Shown in pieces: positions 570 through 35,470 of a stretch of DNA of 43,180 nucleotides. Source of the stretch: Okeania sp. SIO1I7. Lineage in GTDB: Bacteria > Cyanobacteriota > Cyanobacteriia > Cyanobacteriales > Microcoleaceae. How positions within the stretch are numbered: position 1 is the first letter of the stretch; each line of letters starts with the position of its first letter. The DNA lies in assembly GCA_010672585.1 (NCBI GenBank), contig JAAHGF010000027.1, positions 1-43,180 on the forward strand, given 5' to 3'. The position numbers were made by a program, and so were the translations under genes. Below the pieces are notes generated by a model. It saw only the letters and a program-made list of their open reading frames with translations. It made no database searches and was not told the DNA's origin.

Positions 570-1167
570 ATGTCAACCACCAAAATGCCACTAAATTTCA
601 CAGAATTACCCCTACGTCTGCTAAGTTAGGAATTTTGCACCAGGATGAACAGGTAGAATTAATCGCAGGACAAATTATTCGCAAGATGTCACCTCAAGGA
701 AGTTCCCACGCTGCAGCTATTCGACGAGCAGACCGCTTGTTTAGTCAATCTTTAGGAAAAAGGGTTTCGGTGCAGAAACAACTTCCGGTGATACTGAATA
801 ATTTTTCTCAACCTGAACCAGATATTGCAGTAGTGAAAGTAGACCCTCTTGATTATGATGACTCTCATCCTACAGCAGAAGATGTGTATTTGATCGTGGA
901 GATTGCTGATAGTACTCTCAAAAGTGACTTGGAGGTGAAAGGAAAAGAGTATGCAAAGTCTGGAATAGAGGATTATTGGGTGTTGGATGTGAATCATCGC
1001 CAGTTGTATGTCAACCTACTAAGGATGGATATCAACAGGAAATGATTTTAGGGGAAGATGATGCGTTGGCGGTGCCTAGCGGCAGCTACATCGCTCCTAG
1101 AGAATTTCTTGATTGTGTGATTTTAGTTGGGGAGTTGTTGCGACCTATGGTAACAATTAATAATTAA
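570..1167 (+). pseudogene. Uma2 family (DUF820) endonuclease-like protein, broken by frameshifts
   Basis: The family start is recognisable at ATG 570 (MSTTKMPLNFTELPLRL) but hits a stop at 627-629. The family sequence resumes in another frame with LGILHQDEQVELIAGQ and continues through DIAVVK, YLIVEIADST and the DYWVLDV core. A second frame change near 1010 is needed to recover the C-terminal part, QPTKDGYQ to LLRP, ending at 1167. The N-terminal gap also lacks about eight residues normally present after LPLRL, so a small deletion probably caused the first shift. Uma2 proteins have a PD-(D/E)XK-like fold and are abundant in cyanobacteria; their function is not well established. The C-terminal piece contains an insertion-like stretch encoded by a small palindrome near 1061-1100. 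Confidence 0.75.
1061..1100. repeat. Small palindromic insert inside the Uma2 remnant
   Basis: Around GGCGGTGCCTAGCGGCAGC the DNA can form a hairpin. It adds about a dozen residues (ALAVPSGSYIAP) between GEDD and REFLD, where Uma2 proteins normally have only a few residues. It resembles the small mobile palindromes seen at 34355-34400 and 37741-37875 in this window in being G+C-rich and self-complementary. Confidence 0.4.
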
Positions 1168-1350: not shown

Positions 1351-1938
1351 ATGAATCAACTATTACCTTTAGATTTTTCTCAGCAAGACTTACGACATCG
1401 TGATTTTCAAGGGCAAGACCTGACAGGAGCTAATTTTAGCGGTTCTGACTTGAGAGGTTGCAATTTTCAGGATGCTATCCTAGTAGAGGCCAATTTTCGA
1501 GGTGCAAAAATCGGACAATGTAGGAGCAAAATTAGGACTTTGATCGCTCGTTGTGCTGGAGCGGCGATCGCTGTTACTATTGCGAGTGCTTTTGCGAGTT
1601 TTGTTGCTGGTGGAATGGCGGGGGTTGCTGCTTTAATTGCAACTGGAGTTGTGGCGGTTGCTATTACTAATGCGGAAAATGAAATTATTGCTGCGGTTTT
1701 AACGGGTACTTCAGCAGTTATTGGTTCGAGTGGTATTATCTCTTTTTTTGCTGGAAATATAGTTAAGGCATTGTTATTATTTTTGTGTTCCGAAATAGTT
1801 TTTGGATTGGCGATAATTTTGTTTTTTCAAGTTGTTATCAAGTTGGAGAAGTTATCAAAAACATCTTTTGAGGATGCAAATTTAACTAATGCTATTTTTG
1901 ATGAGGCAGTTATATCAAATCCGGTTAAACAGTTATAG
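1351..1938 (+). CDS. Pentapeptide-repeat protein with central membrane segments
   Basis: The 195-residue product begins with about nine pentapeptide units (A(D/N)LXX type; for example DLTGANFSGSDLRGCNF) over residues 14-57. Residues about 68-161 are hydrophobic and glycine/alanine-rich, with roughly four possible membrane helices. A second short pentapeptide run (TSFEDANLTNAIFDEAVI) follows at 171-188. The membrane region therefore looks inserted inside a pentapeptide quadrilateral helix. Pentapeptide proteins are very common in cyanobacteria and usually of unknown function; no enzyme motif is visible. The ATG at 1351 is the only good start in front of the repeats, and no neighbour suggests an operon. 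Confidence 0.8.
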   Translation: MNQLLPLDFSQQDLRHRDFQGQDLTGANFSGSDLRGCNFQDAILVEANFRGAKIGQCRSKIRTLIARCAGAAIAVTIASAFASFVAGGMAGVAALIATGVVAVAITNAENEIIAAVLTGTSAVIGSSGIISFFAGNIVKALLLFLCSEIVFGLAIILFFQVVIKLEKLSKTSFEDANLTNAIFDEAVISNPVKQL

Positions 1939-2462: not shown

Positions 2463-4547
2463 ATGAGCAACAGTATATTAGACGATCGCTTTTTTACCAG
2501 ACCCACCGATGGTCAAATTTTCTCATTTCCCATATTAATAGTGGGTGGTTCCACTGCAGCATATTCGGCAACCCTGGGTGCATTAAAAGCGGGTGCAAAT
2601 GTTTGCCTGGTGCAACCAAAACAAATATTAGGCGGACAATTTACAACTCAAGCATTACCCGCTTCCGACGACCCTCAACTAGACAAAAAATTTAATCCAG
2701 GGGAAATATATGAAGATAAAGTAGACCGAGACAAATACGCCTTTTCCCAGACTCAATGGCAATTCCGCGAACGTAGTCGGGAACTCCAACCAGTTAATGG
2801 TAAGAAAATTGATAACCCTGGTGGGGGTTGGGTAAGTAATTTTGCCACGACAACTGTAGTTATGGCACAAGCGCTTAACGAAGCGATCGAAGATTTTCTC
2901 AGCAACGGCAAATTAACCCTCATTCCTTTTGCTGAACCTGTAGAAATTTTGTTTAGTCAATCTCCCAATGAACGACGACAGGTAACGGGTGTTATATTTC
3001 AGGATGTGCAGAATAATCAACGTTTCACCGTTAATGCTCAAATTACCATTGAAGCGACAGACTTGGGAGACTTACTAGAATTGGGAAATATTGAATCCAG
3101 AGTCGGACAAGAATCACAAAACGACACGGGTGAACCACTTCTTCCCCAACAACCTTTTCCCGAATGTCAACAGTCAATCACTTTTTGTGCTGTTGTGGAA
3201 AAAACTGCCCAGGGAGCAGGTGTTCCCATCGGTAAACCAGAAGGTTATGGTGTCGAACCTTGGTTACAGACAGATAAATTTACCAGCATTTATCAAGGAC
3301 GAGCATTTTTTGAGCGGTTTGCAATTTTTACTTATCGACGGATAAGACGTCTCAAGGAAGGATATATTCCAACTACGAGTAATGGTGATGTGACTATCCT
3401 CAATTATGAGTCCAATGATTATAAAGTCGGTTTGTTGACTGGGGTGAGTCGGAGCGACCGCCAAAAACATCTTCAGCAAGCACGGGAGTATACTCAAGCT
3501 TATATCTATTACCTCCAGTCGCAAACATTGAAAACCAACAACTGGATATTAATAGGTAAGGTAGGGGAATTAAAACCACGGGGAGACTTGACTTGGACTA
3601 ATGATGGTATTGCTCTGGAACCCTATATCCGCGAAGCAAGAAGAGGGATAGCATTAACAACTATTGTTTATCGAGATACTGCGCAACAATATTATGGCGA
3701 ACAAGCGCGGGGACGTTGTTTTGAGGATAGTGTTGGTATTGGTCATTATGCTTTGTTTGATATTCATCCCACCGATAACCCGAACCATCTTGTTTTTAAC
3801 AGTAAAGATGAGATGAAATGTTTGCCTTTTACTATTGCGTTAAAAGCAATGGTGCCTATCAATACGGATAATCTAATTTTATCGGCGAAAAGTATTGGTA
3901 CAACTCATTTGAGTAATTCTGTATATCGGATGCACGCTGTTGAATGGGCGATCGGGGAAGCGGGGGGTCATTTAGCTGCTTTTGCTCTGAATGAGGGGGT
4001 GGATATTCGGACTATTGCTACGAATAAACGACTGATTTATAAATTTCAGGGTTTGTTAACTCGTAATCAAATTCCCCTATTTTGGTATAACGATATTTCC
4101 CATGACGACCCAGACTTTGAGGCGATTCAAATTCTTGCGGTGGCAGGTTTTGTACGGACTGAGAATTACAATCATTTATATTTTCTACCAGAGGGAACGG
4201 TAAACCGAGCAGTTGTTTCGGTAGCGGTGGTAAATGTGATGGGTTTTGAAATGCTTAATCCTCAGTTTCCCACTTTTCTCGATGTACCGAAGGAGCATTT
4301 TGCCTATCGTGCAGTTGAAACTATGGCAGCAAAAGGTATTGTTTCGGGAGTGGGTAATGGATATTTTGCGCCAAATTTACAATGTACGCGGGAGCAGTTA
4401 GCGTTTATTGTTGGTAAAAGTGGAGATTTTGATGTGTTTCAGTTATTTGGGTCTTCTGGTACACCTCTGGATGCTCAACCTTTGAAACGACGGGAGTTAT
4501 CTCGGATTTTGTATATGGTATTGCGATCGCAATATGGTATTGATTAA
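2463..4547 (+). CDS. FAD-dependent oxidoreductase with C-terminal SLH segment
   Basis: The 694-residue product opens with an FAD-binding Rossmann motif (IVGGSTAAYSATLGALKAGA, about residues 26-45) and an ILGGQFT motif at 55-61, as in the FAD_oxidored family. Later parts include TIEATDLGDLLELG, an arrangement seen in this family where the FAD domain closes. Residues about 597-657 (FLDVPKEHFAYRAVETMAAK, then GIVSGVGNGYFAPN and CTREQLAFIVGK) match an S-layer homology module. SLH modules normally anchor exported proteins to the cell wall, but no signal peptide is visible, so the location is unclear. The substrate is not identifiable. The gene converges on the STAND gene at 4596, with a hairpin between them. 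Confidence 0.85.
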   Translation: MSNSILDDRFFTRPTDGQIFSFPILIVGGSTAAYSATLGALKAGANVCLVQPKQILGGQFTTQALPASDDPQLDKKFNPGEIYEDKVDRDKYAFSQTQWQFRERSRELQPVNGKKIDNPGGGWVSNFATTTVVMAQALNEAIEDFLSNGKLTLIPFAEPVEILFSQSPNERRQVTGVIFQDVQNNQRFTVNAQITIEATDLGDLLELGNIESRVGQESQNDTGEPLLPQQPFPECQQSITFCAVVEKTAQGAGVPIGKPEGYGVEPWLQTDKFTSIYQGRAFFERFAIFTYRRIRRLKEGYIPTTSNGDVTILNYESNDYKVGLLTGVSRSDRQKHLQQAREYTQAYIYYLQSQTLKTNNWILIGKVGELKPRGDLTWTNDGIALEPYIREARRGIALTTIVYRDTAQQYYGEQARGRCFEDSVGIGHYALFDIHPTDNPNHLVFNSKDEMKCLPFTIALKAMVPINTDNLILSAKSIGTTHLSNSVYRMHAVEWAIGEAGGHLAAFALNEGVDIRTIATNKRLIYKFQGLLTRNQIPLFWYNDISHDDPDFEAIQILAVAGFVRTENYNHLYFLPEGTVNRAVVSVAVVNVMGFEMLNPQFPTFLDVPKEHFAYRAVETMAAKGIVSGVGNGYFAPNLQCTREQLAFIVGKSGDFDVFQLFGSSGTPLDAQPLKRRELSRILYMVLRSQYGID

Positions 4548-4557
4548 ATATTTTTGT

Positions 4558-4580
4558 AGGGGTTTGGTTATTAAACCCCT
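4558..4580. terminator. Hairpin between convergent genes
   Basis: AGGGGTTT and AAACCCCT form a perfect 8-bp stem around a 7-base loop, 11 bases after the oxidoreductase stop and just beyond the stop of the opposing gene. No strong T-run follows on either strand. It may act as a bidirectional terminator, but a mobile palindrome is also possible. Confidence 0.45.
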
Positions 4581-4595
4581 GTACAAGACTAACTA

Positions 4596-7500
4596 TTAAT
4601 TATTACCAATTCTGTTCATATTATAAATATTAATGATATTGTCTTTATCAAATATAGATACAGTTCTAATTTCATGAACACTAGGAATAGAAAAAGGTTC
4701 ACTACTGACTAATTTTTGTTGAAATCCAATAAAAACTATAGCTAAGGAGGAGGTTTTAATAAATTGTTTCAGATAATTACTTTTAATCAAAAGACCAAAA
4801 TCACTTTCTGTAGAAACTTCAGTAATTTGAACAACTTTTCCTTCATCTATCCAACTAGATTTAGTATTCCATTTTAAGTTTCCAAAATTAACTAACTCTG
4901 GCACGGGAACATTCAAACTTGGGATAGATTCTTCTTGACTACAATCATATTCCCAGTCATTACCTCTTAATAGTTCAATAGTTGTAAATTCAGCATTGTC
5001 TGTACCTGGTAGATTGTATTTTAAGGATATTTCCCCAGTTTCAAAACGCTGCTGAGAAGCTATGGTATTTGGATACTCTCCCATCAATAATTTATAATCA
5101 TTTGGCAGTTGTAAGTCTAGAGAAAATTTAGTAGAAGATAATTCTTTTTTGATAGCCTCAATATCAGAAAAAGGTACAAATACTGTTCTAATAATGGTTA
5201 CTAAATCTCGACAGGGGTATTTGGCATTAGTTTGATTAGATACAACTTTTTTCAATGAAGAATTTAGTGAAATATGCAACCATTTTTCCCCTCGATTATC
5301 GGTAGTTTGTATTATTTGTTCTATGTTAGGAAAATCCTGTAATTTTATCCATTCATTATTACTTAAATTTGAGACTTTCTCGAAATCATAATCAACAGGT
5401 TTATACCATTCTGTATTAATTTTTGGTTGAGATAAAAAAGCTCGTAAATCAGTAGAATCTATATCTCGTATATCTATACCTTGTAATCTTGGGAGAGAAG
5501 TTTCATTTTCCCATGAATTTATTTTTCTTGGTAAATGGTCTGCTAAAATTCCTGCTAAACGTTGTAATAAAATCCAGTAATATTTTTTGCCTAGTCTTTC
5601 TGTCCAAATTTGTCGTCCTCTTCCACTTCCATATTTTCTGAGAAGAGATAAATCGTATTTGTAGCATTTTTCATTTAAACCTGGATAACCTAATTCAGAA
5701 ACACTTTTAATAAACCAACGATGAATTTCTTGTTGTTCTATTCTTGGATTTTCAACACTGTCATCATTAGAAAGAAGATGAGATTCTAACATAGAACTGG
5801 CAAAATCAGTTTCAGTTAATGTATCCAGGAATAATTCATTTAGATTCATATTTTCTTGGGAAATATCTTGCTCTATTTCTAGATTTTTAACTAATGTATC
5901 GAAGAATAATTCATTTAGATTCATATTTTCTTGGAAAATTTCTTGCCCTATTTCTAAATTTTCAACGCTGTAATAATGAGAAAGAACACGACCTTCTAAA
6001 ACATATCTGGCAAAATCAGTTCCACCGAATCCACCAGGAAATTCATCCAGATTCATATTTCCTTGGAAAGCATCTTGCTCTATTAAATGAGCAATATCTT
6101 CTTCTGACGGAATTTCAATAAATTGACTATTGTAAGGTGGTCTAAACTTACTAGCATCAATAGTATCGCTTAACAAATTCCGAGTATAAGCTAGTTCAAT
6201 AATTAATCTTAACCAATCACGGATAAGAGCATTTTCAGGAATCTTTTCTATATCAAAAACCTGAGTATAAATTGTATTGGCAACATCCCGAAGCAAATCA
6301 TTACTATCTAAAAGTAAAATTCCACTATAAGCAGCTAAACTTACCCTTTCCAAAACATAATCATCATCAATATCAAGAAATCGAACTAGAGTAATTTTAA
6401 TAATACTAGAATGACTCATAAAAAGTCTGGTTAAACCTTTAGTTGCTCTATCTCTAACTCTTCTATCTGAAGCAGCACAACACCAACTTAAAAATATTGC
6501 CCATAAACGGCTTGTTTCTTGACTAAATGAAGATAAATCTGCTTGAAGCGACCATTCAATTAAACGCCAAGCTCCGCCTTTTTTCTCAAAATCTTCCTGA
6601 ATTAAACCAGACCAAAAAGGGTCTCTACTTGTTAAACTATGTTGATTTAATAACTCATCAATAAATTCAGCATTAAGTGGATGATTTGGAATTACAGCAA
6701 TTCCAAAAATGGCATCTAAAATTGTGGGACAAGAATTAGAATTAGATAATCCTTCAATAACTAACTCTTTAGTTTTTTCAGAAAAAGTTTTAATAGCACG
6801 CCATTGAAATCCAGAACTAATAATTGGCAATAAAAAATTGTAACGGTCTATATTTTCATTTTGGATAACATCACTTAATTCTACCTGAAACTTCTCAGGT
6901 AAAATAATCGAAAATGCTTCTAGCAAACCCTTATTTTGACTGAGATTTTCATCAGAAGTATCAGGAATAATAATATCCCTTAAGTTATCAACTAATTGTA
7001 TAGTATTAGGATTAGTAGAATTCGGTGGGTAAGATTCAATTCCCTCCAATAAAAACAAAGCAATTAAAAAATCTGCAACACGCTCAAATGTAAAACGACA
7101 AAACCATTTTTTAGGTGCAAGAGGTCTACTTCTTTGTTCAATTAGAGCAATTAATCCTTCCTTTTCTAACTGAATAAATAGTGAGCGATCGCTATCATTA
7201 ACAAAAAATATTTGGTTGACAATTTCTTGCGCTGTTTCTTTTGAAAGTAGGCGAGTTTTTGATTCAGCCATTTTTGTAGCTAAAGCATTAACAGCTTGAG
7301 TCACATTTTCATCTCTTTTATCGTAACGGCAAACTTCTGCTATTCGTTTATTTTTTTCCTCCAGTAATAAGCGTAAAACATAAGTAAATCCCACACTACC
7401 AAGAGGAATTGAGCTAAATCCTAAACCTTTTATCCCCTGACAAATTAAATGTAAAAATAAAGGATTAGTAAATTCTGATTGTAGTAATGGAGTAGCTGGT

Positions 7501-9080
7501 GGATCTAACTTATAAAATTCAAAAAATTGTTTAATCGCATCAAATTCACGCCCAAAAAAACCATTATGTTCAAACTCAATAAATTTCTTTCTCAAATTTT
7601 CATCAAATACTTCATCTAAATAAGTATCGCGACATGAAACACATAATTTTAATCTAGGAAAATGAGTAATTTGTTGAACTAAAGGTGCTAACCAAGATAT
7701 TTTCCACTTTCGCCTTTCTGGTGATTCATTAAGTGCATCAATATAAATTATTGCAGATTTTTCAGTTGCTTCTGCTGCTGCATCAATCATTCCCCAAAGT
7801 TCATCTCGGTTGATATTTCCAGAGAATCCCAATTTATTAATAATAATTTTCCAAGGTTCACCTCCAGTAAAATCTTCACCATAAAATATTAGACATATTT
7901 GTTGTTTTTGATGAATATATAGAGCATGGTCTACAATAGCGTGAGTTTTACCAACTCCAGCACATCCCCGAAGCAGCATAAATTGACTTCTAGGCAAAAG
8001 AAATTCTTGAGTATTTATCCATTCAAAAATTTTCTCTAGACATTTAAGTAAATCGCGAGTAGTATCTAGCTTTGCAGCAGGAAAGTGCAAATTATATTCA
8101 GATTCAAACTGTCTAAATCCAGGAGTATCTGCATTTTTACCATGTTCTTCAAGAAGAGCATGGTGAAAAATTTGTTCAACTTTTGTTGTATCTTCTATTA
8201 AATTATCAACCTGTAAACTAACTTTTTCTGCATCAATATAAAATTGATAATCTTTACTTAAAATCTGTTTCAGGGAAATAAGTTTATTGGTAATAGTTTC
8301 AACTATTCGACCGCTATTTTCTGATAAGTCATTATCAACTTTTACATGATTATCCCATCTTTGAAAAATATCTGTAAATTCTTCAAAATATTGATGTTTT
8401 TTTTCTTTCCAACTATCTTGATAGGCAAAAGCATTTAAAGCATCAAAAGCAGGAACATTTACAGAAAGTTGAGGATAATAACGTTGACCAGCTTGAAATT
8501 TAGCATCATTTAATCGTTGTTGAAGCCAATTATTTGTCATTACTTCGCCGTAAAACCAATAGCGACGTAAACCACCATTACTATCAACACGAAGCAAATA
8601 ATCTCTAAGTACACTTTCACTCCAAAATTCAATGGAAAGATGAATATTCTTTGATGCTAGTTCTTGTAGTTTTTTCTTTTTCCATTCTTCTAAATCATCA
8701 ATTTTTCCCTTTCCTCTACCTGTTCGTCCCGTAAAGTTGAATGAAATACAAAATATGTATTGTGTAAGTTCAGGATGATTTTTGACTGCTGCGTTCAGTG
8801 ATGTATTTAATTGCTTAAATTGAGAAATTTCTAATTTATCTCTTTCAAAATATTTAGATTGAATTGCCCACTTATCACCATTTGGCAAAATCCAAAGTGC
8901 TTCAACTCCACCATCACCACCAGCACCTCGAAAACGTTGAAATTGACTATCATTTAGTAATTTAAAATTTCGATCTGAAATATTAGGCAAACGATGAAAT
9001 ATTTGACAGCATAATTCTTCAAATGCTTCTCTTAAACCACCATTATAAGGACGAATTTGTTGAAAGTTTATTTCTAGCAT
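4596..9080 (-). CDS. Mrr-like nuclease/NACHT (STAND) ATPase, Avs-type antiphage candidate
   Basis: The 1494-residue product has a PD-(D/E)XK fold of the Mrr/restriction endonuclease type at its N-terminus. RGAGGDGGVEALW carries the acidic residue (D56) and WAIQSKYF supplies the QxK variant (Q74, K76). A NACHT/STAND ATPase follows, with Walker A RGCAGVGKT at 371-379 and Walker B IIYIDALNE at 444-452. The long C-terminal half is helical and repeat-like, as expected for a target-sensing region. This order matches Avs (antiviral STAND) proteins, in which binding of a phage protein triggers oligomerisation and nuclease activity. Residues about 999-1115 contain a partly tandem duplication. The frame is intact and lies in an accessory region with no evident operon partner. 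Which Avs type it belongs to cannot be decided here; other NACHT nucleases remain possible. Confidence 0.85.
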   Translation of the reverse strand: MLEINFQQIRPYNGGLREAFEELCCQIFHRLPNISDRNFKLLNDSQFQRFRGAGGDGGVEALWILPNGDKWAIQSKYFERDKLEISQFKQLNTSLNAAVKNHPELTQYIFCISFNFTGRTGRGKGKIDDLEEWKKKKLQELASKNIHLSIEFWSESVLRDYLLRVDSNGGLRRYWFYGEVMTNNWLQQRLNDAKFQAGQRYYPQLSVNVPAFDALNAFAYQDSWKEKKHQYFEEFTDIFQRWDNHVKVDNDLSENSGRIVETITNKLISLKQILSKDYQFYIDAEKVSLQVDNLIEDTTKVEQIFHHALLEEHGKNADTPGFRQFESEYNLHFPAAKLDTTRDLLKCLEKIFEWINTQEFLLPRSQFMLLRGCAGVGKTHAIVDHALYIHQKQQICLIFYGEDFTGGEPWKIIINKLGFSGNINRDELWGMIDAAAEATEKSAIIYIDALNESPERRKWKISWLAPLVQQITHFPRLKLCVSCRDTYLDEVFDENLRKKFIEFEHNGFFGREFDAIKQFFEFYKLDPPATPLLQSEFTNPLFLHLICQGIKGLGFSSIPLGSVGFTYVLRLLLEEKNKRIAEVCRYDKRDENVTQAVNALATKMAESKTRLLSKETAQEIVNQIFFVNDSDRSLFIQLEKEGLIALIEQRSRPLAPKKWFCRFTFERVADFLIALFLLEGIESYPPNSTNPNTIQLVDNLRDIIIPDTSDENLSQNKGLLEAFSIILPEKFQVELSDVIQNENIDRYNFLLPIISSGFQWRAIKTFSEKTKELVIEGLSNSNSCPTILDAIFGIAVIPNHPLNAEFIDELLNQHSLTSRDPFWSGLIQEDFEKKGGAWRLIEWSLQADLSSFSQETSRLWAIFLSWCCAASDRRVRDRATKGLTRLFMSHSSIIKITLVRFLDIDDDYVLERVSLAAYSGILLLDSNDLLRDVANTIYTQVFDIEKIPENALIRDWLRLIIELAYTRNLLSDTIDASKFRPPYNSQFIEIPSEEDIAHLIEQDAFQGNMNLDEFPGGFGGTDFARYVLEGRVLSHYYSVENLEIGQEIFQENMNLNELFFDTLVKNLEIEQDISQENMNLNELFLDTLTETDFASSMLESHLLSNDDSVENPRIEQQEIHRWFIKSVSELGYPGLNEKCYKYDLSLLRKYGSGRGRQIWTERLGKKYYWILLQRLAGILADHLPRKINSWENETSLPRLQGIDIRDIDSTDLRAFLSQPKINTEWYKPVDYDFEKVSNLSNNEWIKLQDFPNIEQIIQTTDNRGEKWLHISLNSSLKKVVSNQTNAKYPCRDLVTIIRTVFVPFSDIEAIKKELSSTKFSLDLQLPNDYKLLMGEYPNTIASQQRFETGEISLKYNLPGTDNAEFTTIELLRGNDWEYDCSQEESIPSLNVPVPELVNFGNLKWNTKSSWIDEGKVVQITEVSTESDFGLLIKSNYLKQFIKTSSLAIVFIGFQQKLVSSEPFSIPSVHEIRTVSIFDKDNIINIYNMNRIGNN
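5737..6085 (-). repeat. Internal tandem repeats in the STAND gene
   Basis: Within the coding frame, units containing GNMNLDEF, ENMNLNELFFDTLVKNLEIE and ENMNLNELFLDTL recur. Flanking blocks LEGRVLSHYYSVENLEI and LESHLLSNDDSVENPRI are also related. The DNA of the two central units is almost identical, so the duplication is probably recent. It lies in the putative sensing half of the protein and keeps the reading frame. Confidence 0.75.
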
Positions 9081-9159
9081 AAAAATTCTGAGTATAATTT
9101 ACTTTTTTATAAATTGGCAATCCCAAATTAACATTAGAGTCAGAACTTTTTTTTTCATC

Positions 9160-9408
9160 TCAATTATAAGAATACTTTACCAACTTAACCCTTTCTTTTT
9201 CTGACAAATTTTCCTCTAAAACACTAATATTTTCCACAGGAATATTAACTTTAACCTTCTCACCAATAGCATATTGATTCAGATGAAAAGGATTAATATT
9301 TTGTCTGCGGATAACTATCTTAGCTTTGTCAGTTAAACACACCACATAACGAGTATCTGTACCAATATAAACAATATTTTCTACTATCCCTGAAAAATCA
9401 GATTTTTC
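9160..9408 (-). pseudogene. Polyamine ABC transporter ATPase (PotA-like) C-terminal remnant
   Basis: The frame gives SGIVENIVYIGTDTRYVVCL, then TDKAKIVIRRQN and IGEKVKVNIPVENISVL before the stop. This matches the TOBE domain at the end of PotA/CysA-type ABC ATPases. The whole ATPase domain is missing. The upstream border coincides with a CCCCTACT repeat block at 9409-9459, so the gene appears cut by a repeat or recombination. A translation from the internal ATG at 9345 would give only 61 residues and is unlikely to function. Confidence 0.65.
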
Positions 9409-9459
9409 AGTAGGGGAGTAGGGGAGATTGAAGTAATTATAGAATTATCAACATATATT
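9409..9459 (-). repeat. Dispersed repeat with CCCCTACT units (copy 1)
   Basis: Read on the minus strand this is a TATGTTGATAATTCTATAAT block followed by CACTTCAAT-like sequence and CCCCTACT units. It closely matches 19297-19345, where the same order occurs on the plus strand with more CCCCTACT copies. It marks the truncation point of the PotA remnant. Confidence 0.6.
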
Positions 9460-9460
9460 A

Positions 9461-9652
9461 TCAGGACTTACGCACGAGGCACGAAAATTTCTAAGCACGG
9501 GAGCAAGATCCTCCCACTACTATGCCTCGTAACAAAAATAATGACAATGCAACACCATTAAAAATTGAACATAACAATATTTTTTCCACTTTGGTACAAT
9601 ATAATATCAGGACTTACGCATGAGGTACCAAAAACTAGGACTTGAGATTGCT
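9461..9652. repeat. Two partial copies of the GGACTTACGCA element
   Basis: TCAGGACTTACGCACGAGGC starts at 9461 and ATCAGGACTTACGCATGAGG at 9606. The second copy continues through ACTAGGACTTGAGATTGC, matching the inverted copy at 274-367. No convincing right ends are visible, so these look like truncated copies. The first copy carries a CACGGGAGCAAGATCCTCCC stretch that is also found, inverted, near 10488-10510. Confidence 0.55.
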
Positions 9653-9770
9653 TTCCGTTCCGAAATGCTCCGTAAACAACGGTGTCTCAAAAAAAATCTG
9701 CTGAGTGCTGACCGCTTCTTTAAAATTGGATAAAAGACTCTATCATTATTTTCAGCAAAGGTAAAAAATT

Positions 9771-10373
9771 ATGGTTACAACTAACTTAGTTCAGACAATA
9801 GCTGTTAATATTCCCAAAGAAATTAATCTCAAAATTACTCACGAACAATTTGTTGAGCTAGCACTGGTTAACCGAGATTTACAATTAGAAAGAACTGCCA
9901 AAGGAGAATTAATTGTTATGGTGCCAACAGGAAGCGGTACCGGAAATCGTAACTCAAGTATTACAGGACAACTTTGGTTATGGAACCATCAAACAAAACT
10001 GGGGAAAACTTTTGATTCTTCTAGTGGTTTTCATCTGCCTAATGGTAGTAGTCGTTCTCCCGATGCAGCTTGGGTAAAACAGGAAAGATGGGATAGTTTG
10101 ACTACGGAACAAAAAGAAACTTTCGCCCCTTTATGTCCTGATTTTGTAGTAGAATTACGTTCTAAAAATGATACTATTTCCGAGTTACAGAAAAAGATGA
10201 AAGAGTATCAATCAAATGGTGCAAAATTAGGTTGGTTAATTGACAGTAAAAATCGGCAAGTAGAGATTTATTGCCAAAATAGGGAAGTAGAAATATTGGA
10301 AAATCCTAATAGTTTATCTGGGGAAGATGTATTACCTGGATTTGTTTTAGATTTGACAGAAGTTTGGGGTTAA
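9771..10373 (+). CDS. Uma2 family (DUF820) endonuclease-like protein
   Basis: The 200-residue product is a full-length member of the Uma2 family. It shows the early EQFVELALVNRDLQLERTAK region, the SRSPDAAWV motif (acidic residue of the PD-(D/E)XK-like core) and PDFVVELRSKND, whose E-x-R/K pattern supplies the second part of the site. The C-terminal GAKLGWLIDSKNRQVEIY follows. Uma2 proteins occur in large numbers in filamentous cyanobacteria; a nuclease function is predicted from the fold but rarely tested. ATG at 9771 gives the usual family length. It stands alone, next to repeats and a truncated transporter gene. Confidence 0.85.
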   Translation: MVTTNLVQTIAVNIPKEINLKITHEQFVELALVNRDLQLERTAKGELIVMVPTGSGTGNRNSSITGQLWLWNHQTKLGKTFDSSSGFHLPNGSSRSPDAAWVKQERWDSLTTEQKETFAPLCPDFVVELRSKNDTISELQKKMKEYQSNGAKLGWLIDSKNRQVEIYCQNREVEILENPNSLSGEDVLPGFVLDLTEVWG

Positions 10374-10853
10374 TAACCACATCTATTACATAGGAAAATA
10401 GGGAAGAGATTAAACATTTTCCTGCCTTGGTGGTGGTGCATCGTCATGGTTGTGCATTGCCATTATTTTTTTGACAAAGCACAACCGTGGGAGCATCTTG
10501 CTCCCGTGTCATATTATTTCTGTGTGGGGTGCTCTTGAAAAGATATTGGGAAGTAGATGAACTGATTGAGCATTGAACATTGCTTCCAGACGAGATAACT
10601 TTATTGGGTAACAAAAATGGGGTAAATAATATCATGTCCGTTGGTATCGGAGCGTGTATAAAATTGGGGAAATATTTAGCGCCATTAATGGTTTTTCCTT
10701 CTCTTAAAGCTTCTTCCTTCTTCCAACTTCGGTCTTCCTTACCTTCTCTATACAATACCGATGCTACCGGACATGATATAACAGCTAATCGCTTGGGAAC
10801 TTAAAACAGATCTGTACAAGTTAAAGTTAAAGTTGATAAACCAAACTCCTATT
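10374..10853. other. Repeat-filled spacer between Uma2 and TAXI genes
   Basis: No gene is supported. The spacer holds a GGGAGCATCTTGCTCCC palindrome near 10490 and the 151-bp MITE-like element at 10629-10779. Open frames across it on both strands have no family resemblance and coincide with the repeats. Confidence 0.55.
10629..10779. repeat. MITE-like element, family with ATATCATGTCCGG ends (copy 2)
   Basis: The left end, ATATCATGTCCGTTGGTATC, pairs with the right end, whose minus strand reads ATATCATGTCCGGTAGCATC. This gives a 22-bp terminal inverted repeat with about three mismatches. Length (151 bp), ends and the internal GTGTATAAAATT block agree with the element at 2206-2357. It carries no gene. 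Confidence 0.7.
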
Positions 10854-12431
10854 TTAAGATTGAGTAGATTGATAGCTTGTCAAAGGAACCGTAAGGTTAT
10901 TATTATCAGTATGATGGGTATTATTATTGTTTAAATTCACATAATGACTAATAAGTTGGGTAAGATGAATGAAAGTCTGAATATCAATTTGACGTGATAA
11001 TAACATTTCTCGATATTTCTCTTCTAAATTTTCCAGCTTATCCTTAACTTCTTCTGGGCATACTTCCGACATAGATTGCCATTCATCAATTAATTCTATG
11101 GTATTTTGAATATCTTTCTGATTTTGTTTTTCTTGCAAAATTCGGCATTCTTCTACCAGCATCTTTGTCATTTCTTCTAACTTTTCATAAGCTTCTTTAG
11201 GTAAATCTCCCTCAATCAACATTGACCTATGTTGCTGCCTTAATTCTTCTACTTCTTTAAGAGCTTGAATTGGATTTTCTTCTAAATTTAAACTAATGTT
11301 ACTGAGAGCTAAACGGCTATTTTTAATCATATTGAGACACTGTTTATGACGCCACATTCGCAACAAAAATCCGAGAATACCTGTAGATATAACAATAATT
11401 ATACCTGCCTGTAAATCTTGGTTTTCCTCCAAGTAGCGCATCCAAACTTGTCTGGGGTCACCTTGCTCAAATGCTTGCTGGGAACCAGGATGAAGATATA
11501 CCAACCCACTCTGTAATAAAGAGCGAGTATTTCCGTTCGCAAGTTCTGGGTAAAATAATGAGTATTGTCGAGAAGATGAGATAATTGACCAAGTTAAAAG
11601 AGCAATTTTTTCCTTACTGACATCAGGACGAGTTACCAAAGCAGCAGCAGTAGAAATAGTAGGCAAATCTTCCTTAGGTATTGGTGGTAGAGGAATATAA
11701 CTACCCTTTGGCATAGTTGCACTTTGATATGATTCTGGAAATTGAATAGTTAAGTAGTTAATAAAGGCAGTTGATATCGGAACTAACCTGAGCAAGGGAG
11801 GTTTTGCTAGCTCTGCTTGAATTTTCTTACTGCTTCCCACCGGACCAACATAGACGAAAGCATCTATTTCTTTCTGTTTCAGTTTATCTAATCCTTCTCT
11901 GATATCAATATTCGCTTCAATAATGTTTAGATTTGTGGCACTAAATAGTCGTCTAGCAGTGAAGTAAATACCGCTTTCCGGAGCACCAAAAATGACTCGC
12001 TTTCCGTCAAGGTCAGTAAAAGTATCGATCTCTGAGTCAGATTGTGTAATTAGGTGTAAATATTCATGGGCAAGAACAGCTATTGCTTGGACTTTGCCCA
12101 TTTTCATTGCTTCGCTGGCGACATCTAGTTGAACTAGAGCAAGGTCCGCTTCTCCATTGAGTAGGCGTTTGAGGTTTTGTTGCGAACCGTAGGAATCATA
12201 ATTATCGCGGACTTTTATTTTCCCTACTTCACGAGCTGAAGTTACTATTTGCCTGCCTATATTCTCATAAGCACCTCCATTAGCACCACTAGAAAGGGTG
12301 AGACTGTAGCGTTGAGTAGTGCAACTCGTTAATGCGATCGCCCATAAAAATATACCTCCTATTCCTATTAATTTACTAGGTAGCTTATGATGAGGATATA
12401 TAGCAGTTGATAATTTAGTAAATATATGCAA
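10854..12431 (-). CDS. TAXI-family TRAP-type solute-binding lipoprotein with C-terminal membrane helix
   Basis: The 525-residue product has a hydrophobic signal ending in a lipobox (ALTSC, Cys37), so it is probably an exported lipoprotein. Residues about 40-330 match TAXI-type TRAP transporter solute-binding proteins: LSSGANGGAYENIGRQI, NLKRLLNGEADLALVQLDVA, LDGKRVIFGAPESGIYFTAR and DAFVYVGPVG. A membrane helix follows at 342-360, then about 165 cytoplasmic residues that are charged and probably coiled coil. Classical TAXI proteins are soluble and end near residue 330, so the tail is unusual. No TRAP permease gene is adjacent. The ligand is unknown, and a role in sensing rather than transport is possible. 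Confidence 0.8.
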   Translation of the reverse strand: MHIFTKLSTAIYPHHKLPSKLIGIGGIFLWAIALTSCTTQRYSLTLSSGANGGAYENIGRQIVTSAREVGKIKVRDNYDSYGSQQNLKRLLNGEADLALVQLDVASEAMKMGKVQAIAVLAHEYLHLITQSDSEIDTFTDLDGKRVIFGAPESGIYFTARRLFSATNLNIIEANIDIREGLDKLKQKEIDAFVYVGPVGSSKKIQAELAKPPLLRLVPISTAFINYLTIQFPESYQSATMPKGSYIPLPPIPKEDLPTISTAAALVTRPDVSKEKIALLTWSIISSSRQYSLFYPELANGNTRSLLQSGLVYLHPGSQQAFEQGDPRQVWMRYLEENQDLQAGIIIVISTGILGFLLRMWRHKQCLNMIKNSRLALSNISLNLEENPIQALKEVEELRQQHRSMLIEGDLPKEAYEKLEEMTKMLVEECRILQEKQNQKDIQNTIELIDEWQSMSEVCPEEVKDKLENLEEKYREMLLSRQIDIQTFIHLTQLISHYVNLNNNNTHHTDNNNLTVPLTSYQSTQS

Positions 12432-30290: not shown

Positions 30291-30372
30291 CAACAAATAA
30301 ACCGCAAAGCGTCCACATTTTGTTATAGTGTGTTACGATCATTTACTATCAACCCTAGTTCACCTGAAACTA

Positions 30373-31581
30373 TTGTATAGAGCTATCAAAGTCAGAATCT
30401 ATCCCAACCCTCAGCAGTGCCAAAAACTAACTCAAGTCATGGGGGCAGCCAGATGGTGGTGGAATTATGCTTTGAATTTGTCCAATCAAACTTACAAAGA
30501 AACAGGTAAAGGGTTAACTCAAATAGCTCTCAACCAAGTTTTACCATTACTCAAAAAATCAGAAGAAACTGCATGGCTAAAAGACTGTTACTCACAAGTT
30601 TTGCAGTCCACAACCCTGAACTTAACTAAAGCTTTCAAGAACTTCTTTGACAAAAGAGCTAAATATCCAAGATTCAAGTCCTATCATGGCAGACAATCAG
30701 CCCAATATCCTCAGAACTGTCAGGTAGTCGAGAATGGGGTAAAAATCCCTCAAGTAGGAGTAATCAAAGCATCTATTTATCGGCTATTTGATGGTCAACT
30801 AAAAACCGTAACCATTACTAAGACACCAACCCGAAAGTATTACGCTTCATTATTATTTGACACAGAACTTGAAACTCCGGAAGTGGTTGTTACTGGTAAG
30901 GTTATTGGTATAGATTTAGGCTTAAAAGATTTTTGTATTACCCATAATGGAGAAAAAACATCTAAATATACTAATCCTAAACACTTCAAAAAACATCAAA
31001 AAAACTTAGCTCGAAAACAAGCTAAATTAGCCCGTAAGAAAAAAGGAAGTAAATCAAGACAAAAAGCTCGTAAGCTAGTAGCTAGAGTTCACGAACGTAT
31101 TAGCAATGCCCGCCAAGACTTTCTACATAAATTATCTAGGAAAATTGTCAATGATAATCAAGTAGTGGTTGTGGAGAATTTGAATGTCAAGGGTATGGTT
31201 TGTAATCATAACTTAGCTCAAGCTATTTCTGATGTGGGATGGGGAATGTTTATCAATTTTCTTGACTATAAACTACAGCAAAAAGGCGGTTTATTGGTTG
31301 AGATTGACCGCTTTTTCCCTAGCTCTAAAACTTGCTCTAACTGTCTGTATCAAATATCGGAACTGCCATTAGATATGAGAGAATGGATTTGTCCGAGTTG
31401 TGGTACACACCATGATCGAGATGAAAATGCAAGTAAAAACATAAGAGCAGAAGGTATCAGGCAATTATCGGTCTTGGGAACCAGGACTGCTGCTGAAGGA
31501 GGGGAAGTAAGACCAAAAGGTGGGCGTAAGTCTGTCTTGAGGCATTCCCCTGTGAGTTCAGAAGCCCCAACTTCAGCGTAG
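30373..31581 (+). CDS. tnpB: TnpB, RNA-guided nuclease of an IS605/IS1341-type element
   Basis: TnpB is a programmable DNA nuclease guided by an element-encoded RNA that helps the transposon to persist. Three RuvC parts are present: VIGIDLGLKDF (Asp), VVVVENLNVKGM (Glu) and HDRDENASKNI (Asp). A zinc ribbon stands between them, CSNC then CPSC. The start is uncertain: TTG at 30373 gives the family N-terminus LYRAIKVRIYPNP, while GTG at 30328 adds 15 residues. The frame is intact, so the protein may be active. No tnpA lies beside it, so the element is a solo tnpB type that would need a TnpA from elsewhere. An RNA-end hairpin overlaps the stop codon. Confidence 0.93.
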   Translation: MYRAIKVRIYPNPQQCQKLTQVMGAARWWWNYALNLSNQTYKETGKGLTQIALNQVLPLLKKSEETAWLKDCYSQVLQSTTLNLTKAFKNFFDKRAKYPRFKSYHGRQSAQYPQNCQVVENGVKIPQVGVIKASIYRLFDGQLKTVTITKTPTRKYYASLLFDTELETPEVVVTGKVIGIDLGLKDFCITHNGEKTSKYTNPKHFKKHQKNLARKQAKLARKKKGSKSRQKARKLVARVHERISNARQDFLHKLSRKIVNDNQVVVVENLNVKGMVCNHNLAQAISDVGWGMFINFLDYKLQQKGGLLVEIDRFFPSSKTCSNCLYQISELPLDMREWICPSCGTHHDRDENASKNIRAEGIRQLSVLGTRTAAEGGEVRPKGGRKSVLRHSPVSSEAPTSA

Positions 31582-34253: not shown

Positions 34254-35470
34254 AAAAACAAAAGGGAGCTGCTTTTCTCATAATGTTCAAAGAACCATTA
34301 ACATCAGCATTAATTAATCCTTTGTTGGCGGTACGATACAAACCTCTTTGTCTTGATGCAGTCGCTCATGGGGGAAACCCCCAAGACCGCGCTGCATCGC
34401 TTTACTCTTTTTCCTGAGAAAGTGACTTGATTTTTCTGACCTTTTCTGTATACAGGAAGAATATCATTATCTATAAAACTTGCTTTTGAGGTATAAGATT
34501 CTTCTGTAATTATTACATCTATCCCTACCATCTTAGCTTTATAAGATAACATTTCTATTAACTTGTTATAGGGGACAGATACAAAATTTTGATTATTTTT
34601 CTTCCCTAGATTTATCTTCTGCTTCCAGTCTTCATTGTGTCCTATTATTACTGTTCCTATTTTCTGATTAATCAGGGTATTAATAATTAAACGAGATGAT
34701 TTATGAAGATAGTCATTGATTTTGAATTCTCTCTTATTACAAAGCTTTTTTAGTCTCTTACTTGATTGATTTTCTTGGAGTTGAGATTGTAGGAAGCTTT
34801 TGACTTTATTATAGTATTGATTTATAGATTTTAACGGTCTGCCATTTATCAAGATTGGTTTGATTCCGGCGCTTATTAAAGGTTAATGTAGCTAAGTTGT
34901 TTAATCCTATATCAATACTGGCACAACGATTTTTTTCTAACTCGTATTGTTTTTGAGTAGCTTCATAAATGACCTCTATTACATAATGATTAAGTCTAGG
35001 GACGAGACGAATTTGTTTAATTTGTGAAGTAGGTACTAATGTTTTTAGATAGATCCCTGTTTTACTGGGATTAATAATTCCTTGCTTTAATTGCCTCTTG
35101 CTGATAGCTTGTGTTGTATAAACTACAATATTTCTTCCCGTTACTTTATTTTTATATCTAGGAAGACGAGGATGAGATTTAAACTTTGATGGCTTGGTGT
35201 TGATAAATTTTGTTCGCTGCTAAAAAGCTTTTCGGTGTTTCTATCTAGTATCATCAAGATTTGTTGAGATACTTTGGCTGGCATTGCTTGATAATCTGAT
35301 TGGGTAGAGAGTGTTTTTTGCAGATCGTAATAGTCAAGATAAGTATTTTCAAATATGAAAGACTTACGAACCAAATAATTAGCATAATTATAGAGATTTT
35401 TCGACAAGAGACATAGTCGGTCAATTTCCAGATAAAACCGATGATTTTTTGTATGGGATATGTCTCTCAA
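34254..35470 (-). pseudogene. tnpB-type gene broken by frameshifts and a palindrome insertion
   Basis: Pieces on the minus strand add up to one TnpB-related protein of a lineage different from the intact copy. The N-terminal piece at 35470-35141 has LCLLSKNLYNYANYLVRKSF. A middle piece in a second frame has RNIVVYTTQAISKRQ and the RuvC motif SIDIGLNNLATL. The C-terminal piece at 34852 downwards has IGHNEDWKQKINLGKKNNQN and TFSGKRVKR. After an insertion at about 34350-34400, the frame shifts and RGLYRTANKGLINADVNGSL then NIMRKAAP closes the protein at about 34254. At least three frame changes are needed, so it is not functional. In this lineage the zinc ribbon is reduced or absent. Confidence 0.8.
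34355..34400. repeat. Mobile palindrome inserted in the tnpB pseudogene
   Basis: GATGCAG and CTGCATC frame a GGGGGAAACCCCC core. Removing about 47-50 bp at this point restores the expected order GKRVKR-GLYRTANKG, so the palindrome is an insertion into the gene, just before the last catalytic motif. It shifts the frame. The style matches small mobile palindromes of filamentous cyanobacteria. Confidence 0.75.

Follow-up and report, generated by a model that had tools for sequence, protein, structure and literature searches.

Sequence comparisons support the assignment of the gene at 4596-9080 of the 43,180-nucleotide stretch of Okeania DNA analysed here (the window) as a divergent cyanobacterial Avs2, a member of a known family of antiviral receptors. 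With a probability of roughly 0.8, drawn from sequence, structure models and analogy to characterised Avs proteins, we take its product to be an Avs2-type antiviral STAND nuclease that would be triggered by a phage protein and act by abortive infection. The recurrent exchange of effectors among its relatives is more novel than the window gene itself.

The gene is a single open reading frame with zero internal stops (Table 1). The original prediction of an intact 1494-codon frame holds in position, length and intactness, with the strand corrected to minus, since the plus strand in the same frame is rich in stops. A second Okeania genome (G002) carries an intact copy that is 91% identical, and this conservation, together with the Avs2 profile match described below, argues that the window gene is not a chance frame. 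The dN/dS ratio is high between the two Okeania copies (0.54) and lower between the window gene and the copy in genome G127 (0.36), values that point to moderate purifying selection.

Table 1 Positions of the receptor gene, its parts and its surroundings in the window, and of related loci with other effectors
Feature	Position	Strand	Basis or note
Avs2-type STAND receptor nuclease, 1494 aa, ATG to stop	4596..9080	-	Open reading frame, PADLOC, profile match to 9o4e
Predicted nuclease domain, residues 1-180 (D56, E60, Q74, K76)	8541..9080	-	Alignments, predicted fold, profile
Linker region, residues 181-341; residue 181 (MTNNWLQ) is where the nuclease-less Nostoc relative becomes homologous	8058..8540	-	Alignments
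STAND ATPase region, residues ~342-700, approximate boundaries by eye	6981..8057	-	Sequence matches including 9o4e
Walker A GCAGVGKT, residues 372-379	7944..7967	-	Sequence
Walker B IIYIDALNE, residues 444-452 (D448, N451, E452 invariant in 9/9)	7725..7751	-	Sequence, alignment
Predicted C-terminal sensor region, residues ~701-1494	4599..6980	-	Homology with Avs2 9o4e
75-bp tandem duplication, 2.1 copies, in-frame	5810..5966	-	Inside the ~70-residue insert
Accessory block, no homologous DNA beside the flanking genes elsewhere in the genus (3 genomes compared at the 10918 end, 2 at the 4560 end)	4560..10918	.	Genome comparison
Nuclease-less Avs2 core of G517 with upstream pentapeptide-repeat, membrane-like partner	L014:5766-11684		Shared N-terminal stretch
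EAD10-type Avs2 cores preceded by a caspase gene	L066:5862-12440, L067:8318-13316		
Nuclease-less Avs2 with upstream small BELL-like protein, common VGGD..V...TQ-like stretch	L068:5944-10693, L069:3398-8108		

The PADLOC Avs2 profile PDLC02164 aligns with residues 2-1461 of the protein over profile positions 2-1465 of 1504 (916 bits, E 9.3e-276). Avs2 models make up six of the seven PADLOC models listed for the window protein and are the six best, the seventh being a weak PDC-M16A match (0.01), and no Avs1, Avs3, Avs4 or Avs5 PADLOC model was among the matches at E <= 1 for the whole protein. The earlier reading of a nuclease followed by a STAND ATPase and a long C-terminus, and its assignment to the Avs proteins, is thus upheld, with the PADLOC models placing it in type 2; the best match is this defence family and not a non-defence NACHT family, the outcome that had been named as contrary. 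The NCBIfam Avs2 equivalog NF041813 scores 653.5 bits over 3-1287 of 1317, below its cut-off of 1000 bits, which is a naming threshold rather than a biological property and bars the strict equivalog name; because this cut-off is missed, we treat the protein as a divergent branch, "Avs2-type, divergent". The sole Pfam match for the whole window protein was NPHP3_N, just under its cut-off. A profile built from nine homologs aligned with 9o4e, the Avs2 of solved structure, at positions 172-1484 (E 5.5e-287), which takes in the STAND and C-terminal parts. The N-terminal domain showed no alignment with the N-terminus of 9o4e in this match, and the effector therefore appears to differ from that of the solved Avs2. 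Among relatives, the best PADLOC match was Avs2 for all seven proteins checked (G002, G127, G019, G517, G551, G471 and G447), a check that left out G422, G545, G573 and G566.

The N-terminal 180 residues are predicted to form a nuclease. The D56, Q74 and K76 of the proposed QxK-type motif are found at these positions, and in a first nuclease alignment of nine homologs they are invariant together with E60. In a second alignment of five sequences, three of them absent from the first, E60, Q74 and K76 are invariant and sequence L076 is without D56. Since D56 is missing in L076, and the profile match to the solved Avs4 nuclease places Q opposite D56 and E opposite E60, the acidic catalytic residue may be E60 rather than D56; Q74 and K76 stand as proposed. 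The nuclease of G127 (L018:4568-5186) contains an extra hydrophobic stretch of ~27 residues that is lacking in the other eight aligned nucleases.

An AlphaFold2 model of residues 1-180 based on five sequences was fairly confident (pLDDT 80.1, pTM 0.81), and the order of its helices and strands is what we take to be that of PD-(D/E)xK enzymes. A Foldseek search with this model gave zero matches under E 0.001; the solved structure nearest to it was that of the Avs4 nuclease (8dgf_B; probability 1.00, TMq 0.53, E 1.4e-3), after which came EcoO109I, a Pyrococcus repair endonuclease and a chain of a McrB-McrC assembly, and from rank 7 on non-nucleases such as Rag GTPases were interspersed. A profile restricted to the nuclease domain matched Avs4 8dgf (E 4e-4), aligning the Q-x-K motif, and gave a weak match to LlaBIII (E 0.026). 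Motif and predicted fold thus point to an N-terminal nuclease effector, with the nuclease fold anticipated for these residues borne out by the model. The label "Mrr-type" fits in part: the Pfam Mrr model gave no match at E <= 1 for the whole window protein, and the label therefore rests on the motif and on the similarity to Avs4 and LlaBIII.

Both Walker motifs, proposed at about residues 371-379 and 444-452, are present, and G372, G375, G377 and K378 as well as D448, N451 and E452 are invariant in all nine homologs, in keeping with a STAND ATPase. The C-terminal sensor is predicted from the homology to the characterised Avs2 9o4e; a model of residues 340-1494 from six sequences was of low confidence (pLDDT 50, pTM 0.35) and too poor for a fold search. 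An insert of ~70 residues that contains the tandem duplication occurs in both Okeania copies and is lacking in G127 and G517, the two relatives closest to them. Set beside Avs2 (PDLC02161-02166; 9o4e), the window protein shares its length, STAND domain and C-terminal sensor, and the PDLC02164 match spans the nuclease part as well, but it differs in its score under the NF041813 cut-off, its N-terminal domain and this private Okeania insert. Its N-terminal nuclease is what it has in common with Avs4 (8dgf), by profile and as best Foldseek neighbour, whereas the models listed for the whole protein include none for Avs4 and the core is that of Avs2. By sequence and model, the predicted effector resembles that of Avs4 and the remainder is Avs2.

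The gene is present in two of the five genomes of the genus, and in the others homology of the flanks stops at the edges of a block, which agrees with the accessory region that had been proposed. In these three genomes, homology beside gene 2463-4547 ends at window 4559, homology of gene 10854-12431 starts at window 10919, and no match of at least 150 bases adjoining the flanking genes continues in between; the contig of G001 ends 44 bases past the 4559-side edge, and that side is informative in two genomes only. Where the sequence continues past the flanking genes, the neighbours are different. A clean empty site was considered and rejected: in the stretches compared from the other three genomes, the flanking genes do not lie side by side, and our claim is therefore limited to a rearranged accessory block. 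Just upstream of the Avs2 gene lie an orphan TOBE_2 tail resembling the end of an ABC transporter ATPase (window 9160-9408, minus strand) and dispersed repeats (AGGACTTACGCA with flanks; window 9460-9680), for which 43 matches are listed in the same genome, itself included, with 40 of 454 candidates scored. Uma2-family proteins (Pfam) are encoded at window 635-1045 and 9771-10373, the second within the accessory block together with the Avs2 gene. Further along the window, PADLOC gives Cas12f-type matches at 30328-31581 and 34310-34852 that look TnpB-like by eye, the second being short and perhaps truncated.

Across a sample of the phylum, a protein search matched 8 of 386 genomes, and the Avs2 profile matched 61 of 386 at E <= 0.001, of which 8 exceeded 100 bits and most others were short and low-scoring. 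Relatives occur in 74 of 72,556 plasmid records (one of the five inspected among the 40 listed is annotated as avs2), and two of 50,697 records in a phage collection match, covering 46% and 24% of the protein. Contigs of a viral collection also carry relatives. One such contig (L077:4917-9473) encodes a fused-nuclease Avs2 that is 85% identical to one from a Vibrio plasmid, and its neighbours are long proteins with repeated Ig-like stretches, as judged by eye.

Matches occur in 11 of 217 genomes from the family to which G127 belongs, inferred to be the Nostocaceae, and we examined nine of these relatives, leaving out the weak ones in G443 and G569. The nuclease is fused in G127, whereas in G566 the nuclease sequence is present in a frame broken by an in-frame stop, in G447 the open frame, to which this observation is confined, begins near the nuclease end, and in G517, G551, G422, G471, G545 and G573 the receptor starts without a nuclease. 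The core of the Nostoc paludosum FACHB-159 receptor (G517) is 69.6% identical to that of the window from residue 180 on, its homology with the window protein starts sharply at residue 181, and in place of the nuclease it has a short stretch containing NRNINTGGGNYNERIEGDYIQGN. The N-terminal effector appears to be an exchangeable module, as it has been swapped in a relative whose core is ~70% identical.

Proteins encoded near these nuclease-less receptors carry stretches that resemble the receptor N-terminus. Directly upstream in G517 is a gene for a pentapeptide-repeat protein that has a long hydrophobic stretch and nearly the same letters as the receptor N-terminus. In G551 and G422 the gene directly upstream encodes a caspase (tested with Pfam only in G551), and the caspase C-terminus is similar to part of the receptor N-terminus; the receptor starts with EAD10, which is above the Pfam cut-off in G551 and assigned in G422 from a near-identical N-terminus by eye, without a scan. 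A second EAD10-NACHT gene lies downstream of the EAD10-type core in L066. The upstream gene in G471 and G545 overlaps the open frame of the receptor and encodes a small protein whose start is hydrophobic and whose C-terminal stretch is similar to the receptor N-terminus; that of G471 has weak unrelated Pfam matches only, and the label BELL is given by the description in excerpts of PMC7889193 and not by a model. In G573, the stretch is common to two other proteins of the locus and not to the adjacent upstream gene.

Local alignments between the receptor N-terminus and its partner scored 121 in G517, 51 in G471 and 58 in G545, the caspase partners scored 66 (G551) and 61 (G422) and the downstream EAD10 protein of G551 scored 122, with 0 of 1000 shuffles reaching any of these values. 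The two sharing proteins of G573 scored 70 and 68 (0 of 1000 shuffles), and a third neighbour scored 37, which 21 of 1000 shuffles reached. A sharing protein ranked top among the open reading frames of its locus in 6/6 nuclease-less loci, in G551 the downstream EAD10 protein with the caspase second, and the margins were small in G471 (51 versus 39) and G422 (61 versus 46). The best score for the N-terminus of the window protein was 36 over 33 window open reading frames, against top scores of 51-122 in the six nuclease-less loci. In the other three fused-nuclease loci, the best neighbour scored 32 (G127), 32 (G002) and 47 (G019), and given this last value, scores of around 50 exceed the background by little. 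A pentapeptide-repeat gene at window 1351-1938 resembles the Nostoc partner in type; we rejected it as a partner because another gene separates it from the receptor and no window open reading frame stands out in sharing the N-terminus. For a tree of 17 cores, three switches between a fused and an in-trans state are required, each of them forced by starred branches; the placement of G517 beside the window pair has a support of 93/93, below the star, and seven rows are long-branched.

Judged by characterised Avs proteins, the C-terminal region of the window protein would bind a phage protein upon infection, most likely TerL, the large subunit of the terminase, and perhaps a second protein as in Klebsiella Avs2. 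The STAND domain would bind ATP and the protein would oligomerise, the N-terminal nucleases would become active and cleave the DNA of both phage and host, and death of the infected filament cell would precede phage release. The mechanism of Avs1-4, including TerL as trigger of Avs1-3 and Ksap1 as a second trigger of Avs2, is covered in excerpts of PMC12931631 and PMC12724215.

The same architecture and the same fatal outcome could be coupled to a phage protein other than TerL, fitted to the phages of filamentous cyanobacteria, an idea we hold as tentative and as the less probable of the two. More than one trigger each is reported for Avs2 and Avs5 in excerpts of PMC12931631 (Ksap1 for Klebsiella Avs2, JADA for Avs5), and a distinct ligand would be consistent with the insert private to Okeania and with the blocks from residue 1251 to the end, which share only 49-62% identity with those of G127, roughly as little as the nuclease end and linker do (50-60%). 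However, the core matches 9o4e and the plasmid relatives over most of its length, and between the Okeania copies identity is 94-100% in the four blocks from residue 1301 to the end, both of which would speak against a separate trigger.

We consider it improbable that the protein serves filaments as a general stress-death switch or is a NACHT/STAND regulator outside defence. The nuclease-less relatives are linked to EAD10 and caspase, which excerpts of PMC8195603 place among the parts of regulated-death systems in multicellular bacteria, but the best matches are to a defence family, the sole Pfam match lies below its cut-off and the gene is sporadic in its presence, also on plasmids. Even less credible is a decaying remnant without function, a reading suggested by the in-frame stop in G566 and the dN/dS between the Okeania copies: frames are intact in two Okeania genomes, G127 and G019, the motifs are kept, and dN/dS against G127 is the lower value. 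An Avs2-type antiviral nuclease hence stays our preferred reading of the window gene.

For the wider family, we lean modestly towards a view of Avs2 as a portable phage-protein sensor for which filamentous cyanobacteria have repeatedly swapped the fused nuclease for separate effectors, namely a pentapeptide-repeat membrane protein, a caspase or a BELL-like membrane protein, by means of short homotypic stretches that are probably amyloid or EAD10. The window gene would represent the fused state, with the swap falling between species whose cores are 70% identical. The six relatives may resemble BASS amyloid NLR-effector pairs and EAD-coupled STAND systems in that their N-terminal stretch is common to a nearby protein, whereas the window protein carries its nuclease fused and its N-terminus recurs in no neighbour; the relatives' shared stretches are candidate BASS-type motifs, and the amyloid is putative. 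Excerpts of PMC7889193 describe BELL proteins and speak of a blind spot as to what amyloid NLR pairs do biologically in filamentous bacteria, with their outcome to be explored. EAD8-coupled STAND proteins with a trypsin partner appear in excerpts of PMC10907252, and in-trans coupling of STAND proteins as such is therefore already known. We found no co-occurrence of AVAST, amyloid and NLR as whole words in the papers searched, and a prior mention is possible in the primary Avs2 papers (Gao 2022, Bechon 2024) or in Dyrka 2020; among the matches listed, no title or abstract beginning concerns a cyanobacterial Avs2 paired with an amyloid, EAD10 or caspase partner.

On its own, the window gene extends Avs2 by a divergent member from a cyanobacterium; its relatives matter more. 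If the view of Avs2 as a portable sensor is true, a class of receptors whose viral ligands are known would signal into the amyloid-motif and caspase pathways of bacteria. Ligands of Avs2 are reported for enterobacteria, and with the shared cores a comparison of domains, instead of blind screening, could show directly if a caspase or a membrane effector of a filament responds to TerL.
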